Positions 23,066 to 24,136 of a DNA stretch of 64,000 nucleotides are shown piece by piece (position 1 is the stretch's first letter; each line of letters opens with the position of its first letter). Made by a program: the position numbers and the translations under genes. Under the pieces are notes generated by a model. It was not told where the DNA came from. It did no database searches and saw nothing but the letters and a program-made list of their open reading frames with translations. The stretch is taken from NCBI GenBank assembly GCA_019096195.1, contig JAGTXK010000073.1, forward strand, positions 868,001 through 932,000. Reading direction: 5' to 3'. The DNA is from Boletus sp. NGJ. Lineage: Eukaryota > Basidiomycota > Agaricomycetes > Boletales > Boletaceae.

Positions 23066-24136
23066 ATGCAGATCTTTGTTAAGACACTGACCGGAAAGAC
23101 TATCACCCTCGAGGTCGAGTCCTCCGACACCATCGATAACGTCAAGGCCAAGATTCAGGACAAGGAGGGGTAAGTCCCATGACATTCCTCTTTGCACTTC
23201 CCCTCTCACATTTCACAGCATCCCTCCCGACCAGCAACGCTTAATTTTCGCTGGAAAGCAGCTTGAGGACGGCCGCACCCTTTCTGACTACAACATTCAG
23301 AAGGAGTCGACCCTTCACCTCGTCCTCCGTCTCCGCGGTGGCATGCAAATATTCGTAAAGACTCTGACGGGCAAGACAATCACCTTGGAGGTTGAATCCT
23401 CCGACACCATCGACAACGTCAAAGCCAAGATTCAGGATGAGGGAGGCATGCCTCCTGACCAACAGCGTCTTATTTTTGCTGGGAAGCAACTGGAAGATGG
23501 TCGCACTCTGTCCGACTACAACATCCAGAAAGAGTCCACCCTTCATCTCGGTATGTCAACCGTTTGCATTCTGATCTCTGCTCTAATACCCTGCAAAGTC
23601 CTTCGCCTCCGTGGTGGCATGCAGATTTTCGTCAAGACGCTCACTGGCAAGACGATTACGTTGGAAGTGGAGTCATCTGATACCATTGATAACGTGAAAG
23701 CCAAGATTCAGGACAAGGAGGGTATCCCTCCTGACCAGCAGCGCCTCATCTTTGCTGGGAAGCAACTGGAGGATGGTCGCACTCTTTCCGATTACAACAT
23801 TCAGAAGGAGTCCACTCTTCATCTGGTGCTTCGGTTGCGCGGTGGTATGCAAATTTTTGTCAAGACGCTCACGGGCAAGACCATCACGTTGGAAGTGGAG
23901 TCATCCGACACGATTGACAATGTGAAGGCAAAGATCCAGGACAAGGAAGGCATTCCCCCAGACCAGCAACGCCTCATTTTCGCTGGTAAACAACTCGAAG
24001 ATGGACGCACCCTCTCCGATTACAACATCCAGAAGGAGAGTACCTTGCACCTCGGTAAGTCGCCTGCTTGCATTTCCCCGGAACTCTGGTAACGACGACG
24101 TTTCTTCCAGTCCTTCGTCTGCGTGGTGGATGTTGA
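23066..24136 (+). CDS. UBI4: Polyubiquitin (four head-to-tail units plus one Cys)
   Basis: Four exons (23066-23169, 23219-23550, 23599-24054, 24111-24136) give 305 residues, exactly four 76-residue ubiquitins and a terminal Cys that is removed on processing. Units start [11 protein letters not shown] and end LRLRGG. Units 1, 3 and 4 have the usual [10 protein letters not shown]; unit 2 has [10 protein letters not shown] instead, i.e. K33E, E34G and I36M. All lysines used for chains other than K33 (K6, K11, K27, K29, K48, K63) are kept in unit 2. Introns lie at Gly35 of unit 1 and at the last Val of units 2 and 4. Deubiquitinases cut the precursor into free ubiquitin; this gene class supplies ubiquitin during stress. 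Confidence 0.98.

Follow-up and report, generated by a model that had tools for sequence, protein, structure and literature searches.

Natural ubiquitin variants carrying K33E are already known. Human UbKEKS (Q2K, K33E, Q49K and N60S) derives from UBBP4, which carries a pseudogene annotation yet codes for four distinct variants; UbKEKS is conjugated to proteins in cells and is reported not to target them to the proteasome (PMC7066184). In Plasmodium, single polyubiquitin repeats with a protein change of their own have been described (A28S in P. vivax, S57L in the Ovale lineage) in genes that show concerted evolution, and the same report sets out the debate between concerted evolution and birth-and-death evolution of ubiquitin genes and describes Cys and Phe as extra C-terminal residues of polyubiquitin genes (PMC10457151). 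Human UBC, finally, has dual-specific AGGT splice sites at its unit boundaries (PMC10809524).

We analysed a polyubiquitin gene of Boletus sp. NGJ in which one of four units departs from canonical ubiquitin at three positions. The gene lies in a 64,000-nt stretch of contig JAGTXK010000073.1, referred to here as the window, and its splicing was read off the DNA sequence. Its features are as follows (positions of the window).

23066..24136, + strand: polyubiquitin gene with four ubiquitin units, a C-terminal Cys and a stop, by spliced translation
23066..23342, + strand: unit 1, canonical ubiquitin, with intron 1 within codon 35
23170..23218, + strand: intron 1, 49 nt, GTAAGT...CACAG, in codon 35 of unit 1
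23343..23618, + strand: unit 2, variant ubiquitin K33E/E34G/I36M, coding 23343-23550 and 23599-23618
23439..23450, + strand: codons 33-36 of unit 2, GAG GGA GGC ATG
23442..23455, + strand: 14-nt perfect palindrome made by the variant sequence
23551..23598, + strand: intron 2, 48 nt, GTATGT...CAAAG, in codon 70 of unit 2
23619..23846, + strand: unit 3, canonical ubiquitin, intronless
23847..24130, + strand: unit 4, canonical ubiquitin, with intron 3 within codon 70
24055..24110, + strand: intron 3, 56 nt, GTAAGT...TCCAG, in codon 70 of unit 4
24131-24136, + strand: C-terminal Cys, then TGA

Spliced translation of 23066-24136 yields an open frame of 918 nt, in which four 76-codon units, each with an LRLRGG end, follow one another head-to-tail without a spacer and are closed by one extra residue (Cys) and the stop. 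All three introns are GT-AG and occupy two positions, codon 35 and codon 70. Units 1, 3 and 4 encode identical proteins, and in unit 2 the protein has 3 of its 76 residues replaced. Published polyubiquitin genes also depart from a single protein in all units (PMC10457151), so sameness of the encoded units is usual rather than defining. The length of intron 2 is a multiple of three and it is free of stops, so its retention would insert 16 residues at codon 70 without interrupting the reading frame, which would continue through units 3 and 4; an open frame at 23343-24092 runs through it. An earlier note on this DNA had placed unit 2 at 23343..23598, of which the start holds, but 23598 is the end of intron 2 and the unit goes on at 23599-23618.

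The variant stretch of unit 2, within 23430-23460, reads GAGGGAGGCATG, and its codons 33-36 translate as E G G M, bearing out the K33E, E34G and I36M changes that had been proposed; the remaining 73 residues are the same as in the other three units. The standard codons given for comparison, AAG GAG GGT ATC, are those of unit 3, but the standard codons for K E G I differ among units (AAG GAG GGC ATC in unit 1, AAG GAA GGC ATT in unit 4). Unit 2 differs from units 1, 3 and 4 at 36, 36 and 40 codons synonymously, and the only replacements are these three. It scores 111 bits against the Pfam PF00240 profile (canonical ubiquitin, 114.6; cut-off, 25.4), covering profile positions 1-72 of 72. The C-terminal LRLRGG and the Ile44 surface (L8, I44, H68 and V70) are unaltered. 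Six acceptor lysines (K6, K11, K27, K29, K48 and K63) are present and the seventh, K33, is replaced by E, and the spliced translation confirms that K33 is absent from one quarter of the units of this gene. The TEK-box consists of K6, K11, T12, T14 and E34, and the Ile36 patch of Ile36, Leu71 and Leu73 (PMC6471062); unit 2 keeps the first four residues of the TEK-box and has G in place of E34. The earlier note had also expected a changed residue beside the Leu8/Ile36 surface. The Ile36 surface is indeed hit, but the changed residue is Ile36 itself rather than a neighbour.

Ubiquitin is among the least variable proteins known. We surveyed the three positions in 105 tblastn matches from 89 loci on IMG/VR and GTDB contigs, all of them loci other than this gene; 9 of these loci are viral, and the other 80 are the best of at least 436 relatives from the prokaryote collection. 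This sample is non-independent, some of it probably being eukaryotic contamination or near duplicates, and the 16 of 105 matches below 85% identity, which may be ubiquitin-like proteins rather than ubiquitin, were all retained. Across these viral loci and best 80 of at least 436 relatives, position 33 was K in 99 of 105 matches (R in 4, I in 1 and E in 1, the last merely 45% identical), position 34 was E in 103 (A in 1, Q in 1) and position 36 was I in 100 (V in 4, R in 1), with the counts at 33 and 34 tilted towards the standard residues because one of the six search words (KAKIQDKE) spans both. G34 and M36 were absent from the same 105 matches. Restricting this viral and best-80-of-at-least-436 sample to matches of at least 85% identity gave E34 in 89 of 89, K33 in 86 of 89 and I36 in 86 of 89, while the residue of the present gene was found in 28% at position 19, 34% at position 24, 51% at position 28 and 46% at position 57, so other ubiquitin positions do vary in the surveyed matches. 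Three of the best 80 of at least 436 prokaryote-collection relatives sit on large contigs filed as bacterial isolates and encode near-canonical ubiquitin: Dyella sp. OK004 (1.3 Mb contig, 96% identity), Conexibacter sp. CPCC 206217 (92%) and Sphingomonas canadensis (88%). Mutational scanning in yeast found much of the ubiquitin surface tolerant; the main text of that report names neither K33 nor E34, and we found in it no fitness values for K33E, for E34G or for the three changes combined (PMC4862753). The combination K33E/E34G/I36M was likewise not found in a literature search of titles and abstract openings, largely without subscription papers.

A protein search of the whole genome (32.8 Mb, 141 contigs) recovered two further ubiquitin genes, on contigs C46 and C102, which by the look of their tails we take to be the ubiquitin-L40 and ubiquitin-S27a fusions, respectively, as well as weaker matches on C59 and C73 (38% and 45%). 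These two fusion genes were also the sole DNA matches to the polyubiquitin gene elsewhere in the genome. Apart from itself, the 7 kb surrounding the gene matched just the two fusions, with the match limited to the ubiquitin part, as expected of a single locus. Like unit 1, each fusion gene is interrupted by an intron in codon 35. The L40 ubiquitin is canonical, and the S27a-type ubiquitin (near 627008) carries S57N. The six ubiquitin units of the genome thus comprise four canonical, one S57N and one with the triple change, which is confined to unit 2.

Comparison of these six units did not bear out the view that polyubiquitin units here stay identical by concerted evolution. Pairs within the gene differ at 41, 42, 42, 45, 46 and 47 of 228 bases (79-82% identity in DNA), and the nine pairs that involve the L40 or S27a unit differ at 38 to 52, so that in this one genome the repeats of the locus are no more alike than units of different loci. 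Synonymous divergence (dS, by NG86 and YN00) exceeded 1 in every pair that yielded a value; pairs 1-3 and 1-4 yielded none by either method. Since cross-locus pairs are about as similar as pairs within the gene and dS is above 1, the identity of the unit proteins is best read from these sequences as kept by purifying selection. Near-full synonymous divergence of unit 2 without other replacements is consistent with a long period of such selection followed by the cluster of changes.

Among the three replacements, E34G has the clearest predicted consequence, which concerns K11 linkage by UBE2S and had no place in the earlier note. Glu34 of the acceptor ubiquitin activates Lys11 in the UBE2S reaction, so its loss matters if the cell has this enzyme (PMC5717348; PMC6624479). 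The genome holds at least 23 E2-like matches, one of which, a single exon at C38:253009-253356 that reads GEICVNTLKKDW, has UBE2S as its six best PDB matches (best E value 1.9e-32; next E2, 1.3e-11). Its tail, known here from this one exon, ends KKALKRL-stop, and human UBE2S ends LRRL. With an E2 core closest to UBE2S and a UBE2S-like tail end in that exon, the genome very likely encodes a UBE2S orthologue, as judged from sequence similarity.

The consequences for unit 2 can be laid out conditionally. Its unchanged C-terminus, its Ile44 surface and six of seven lysines (K6, K11, K27, K29, K48 and K63) lead us to expect that the precursor would be produced and processed normally, with cleavage at every Gly76-Met1 junction, and that the product would be conjugatable. 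One quarter of the ubiquitins from this gene would then be conjugatable but without K33. Lacking Glu34, such a ubiquitin would be of no help in activating its own Lys11 during K11-chain extension and is predicted, by analogy with the human enzymes, to serve UBE2S poorly as a K11 acceptor. It would cap K33 chains and UBE2S-made K11 chains and could still carry K48 and K63 chains. K33-linked diubiquitin packs via Ile36 patches in one crystal form (PMC4386031); I36M, a conservative hydrophobic change, is probably mild. The variant would be diluted by canonical ubiquitin from the three other units and the L40 fusion and by S57N ubiquitin from the S27a fusion. Intron 2, a multiple of three in length, stop-free and ending in AAAG, might splice unit 2 less reliably and so lower the amount of variant.

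If placed at random among 76 codons, three replacements would fall inside a 4-codon span with a probability of 220/70300 = 0.003, in a test chosen post hoc. The fewest steps are three substitutions, all to G, starting from AAG GAA GGC ATH, or four if codon 34 was GAG. The variant sequence makes the 14-nt palindrome listed above; three of the 12 assumed old sequences need just three changes, and for these, 41 to 45 of 5,940 triple changes (0.7-0.8%) yield such a palindrome. Six palindromes of at least 14 nt occur in the window against 3.9 expected under uniform composition, and the longest perfect one is 18 bases, TTGCCAATATATTGGCAA, at 10272-10289. As a clue to origin, the palindrome is a weak hint recognized post hoc. 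A search of the genome for the 17-base block with up to two mismatches returned six places: the polyubiquitin gene itself, matched exactly, a site on C133 with a single mismatch, and four sites with two mismatches each. The reversed-pattern control returned 0. The longest exact matches in the 17-base block are of 7 bases, namely GGCATGC, shared with both unit 2 boundaries, and GATGAGG, reversed at 23744. Neither the palindrome nor the sharing of GGCATGC is strong evidence on origin. Gene conversion from another ubiquitin locus was rejected because the L40 and S27a units encode KEGI. A template switch within the gene is unconvincing: the best reverse-complement match to the 12-base block covers 9 of 12 bases (for one assumed old sequence), and the best direct match, also 9 of 12, is the assumed old block itself. 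By eye alone, we saw nothing obvious in the way of hidden splicing that would excise the changed codons.

The best account of unit 2, with a probability of roughly 0.6, is in our view that a genuine cluster of mutations arose there recently and is tolerated owing to the excess of other ubiquitin. The signs of a functional gene, including the intact frame, three GT-AG introns and canonical C-terminal residues, support this account, and dilution by other ubiquitin would explain how the variant persists. The principal alternative is a local consensus or assembly error, by which the true unit 2 would be canonical and a stretch of about 12 bases miscalled. Such an error is possible, if unlikely: the changed bases all fall within 12 bases of a unit that otherwise encodes canonical ubiquitin, and the variant block could equally be described as the shift of a run, from AAGGAGGG to GAGGGAGG. 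Moreover, contigs C35 and C50 share near-identical stretches whose alignment of 19,159 columns contains 9 differences, five of them substitutions and four single-base gaps; these are either errors or real differences, so the assembly may hold residual errors. However, three of those four gaps sit in runs of at least eight rather than runs of two or three, and three independent errors within 12 bases at 9/19,159 per base would have a probability of about 2e-8 by hand arithmetic, although a systematic error would break the independence. The frames of all six ubiquitin units are otherwise clean. The particular suggestion of an assembly error in a repeat loses weight, since at the DNA identity given above reads would not easily be assigned to the wrong unit; a repeat-collapse artefact was judged unlikely for the same reason. 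The compared C35 and C50 segments (C35:140001-170000 and C50:100001-140000) share stretches that are mutually inverted and 99.92-99.99% identical, with about 8.9 kb present in C35 alone within its compared part; the shared sequence was either duplicated recently or stems from a second haplotype that the assembly retains.

If the change is real, it could have been selected, unit 2 being kept because a share of ubiquitin that refuses K33 chains or UBE2S-type K11 chains is useful. The three changes jointly affect two chain types and the Ile36 surface, as a terminator or altered-turnover role would have it, in a unit that is otherwise conserved and a genome with a UBE2S-like E2, and functional variant ubiquitins such as UbKEKS exist (PMC7066184). 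However, the variant is known from one genome only, and its changes resemble a single mutational cluster rather than stepwise adaptation, and we regard this explanation as improbable. A slightly slimmer chance still attaches to a genuine minority isoform fixed at one in four, which would keep K48 and K63 signalling and be blind to K33 linkage and UBE2S K11 elongation. There is a similarly small chance that selection on unit 2 has been relaxed, with the clustered changes and a retainable, stop-free intron as early signs of decay: retention of the 48-nt intron 2 adds 16 residues in an open frame, and its acceptor, CAAAG, seems by eye weaker than the CACAG and TCCAG of introns 1 and 3. Yet 73 of 76 residues have stayed the same although synonymous divergence is close to saturation, and relaxed selection should scatter replacements rather than cluster them (0.003). 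Returning to the tolerated mutation, we find it more likely that the variant is nearly neutral or slightly harmful than that it is selected.

The stakes differ accordingly between these explanations. As an error or a private neutral mutation, the variant matters little. The genuine minority isoform would act as a chain terminator built into the ubiquitin supply, making up more of the total ubiquitin upon induction of the polyubiquitin gene. A natural triple change that includes E34, in a genome that apparently encodes the K11 enzyme, would offer a natural experiment: it bears on the conservation of such positions, given that scanning in yeast found much of the surface tolerant (PMC4862753). 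Finally, a gene in which unit identity is apparently held by selection, not homogenization, bears on the debate between concerted and birth-and-death evolution (PMC10457151).

Among known systems, the array has the architecture of the fungal UBI4-type polyubiquitin, with 76-residue head-to-tail units, an extra residue and a stop, and with canonical units 1, 3 and 4; it differs in having unit 2 altered at three conserved positions and three introns at two positions. Like human UBC, it is spliced within the polyubiquitin coding array, but its introns lie in codons 35 and 70, and because its boundaries read CGCGGT or CGTGGT, with no AGGT there, dual splice sites of the human type are ruled out (PMC10809524). 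The Plasmodium genes share with it a single repeat bearing its own protein change, but in those cases one replacement is involved, at positions (28 and 57) that also varied in our surveyed matches, and their concerted evolution is not seen in the present gene (PMC10457151). The nearest known case to unit 2 is human UbKEKS, likewise a natural K33E variant of a polyubiquitin-type gene that lacks K33, although UbKEKS as reported combines this change with Q2K, Q49K and N60S rather than with E34G or I36M (PMC7066184).
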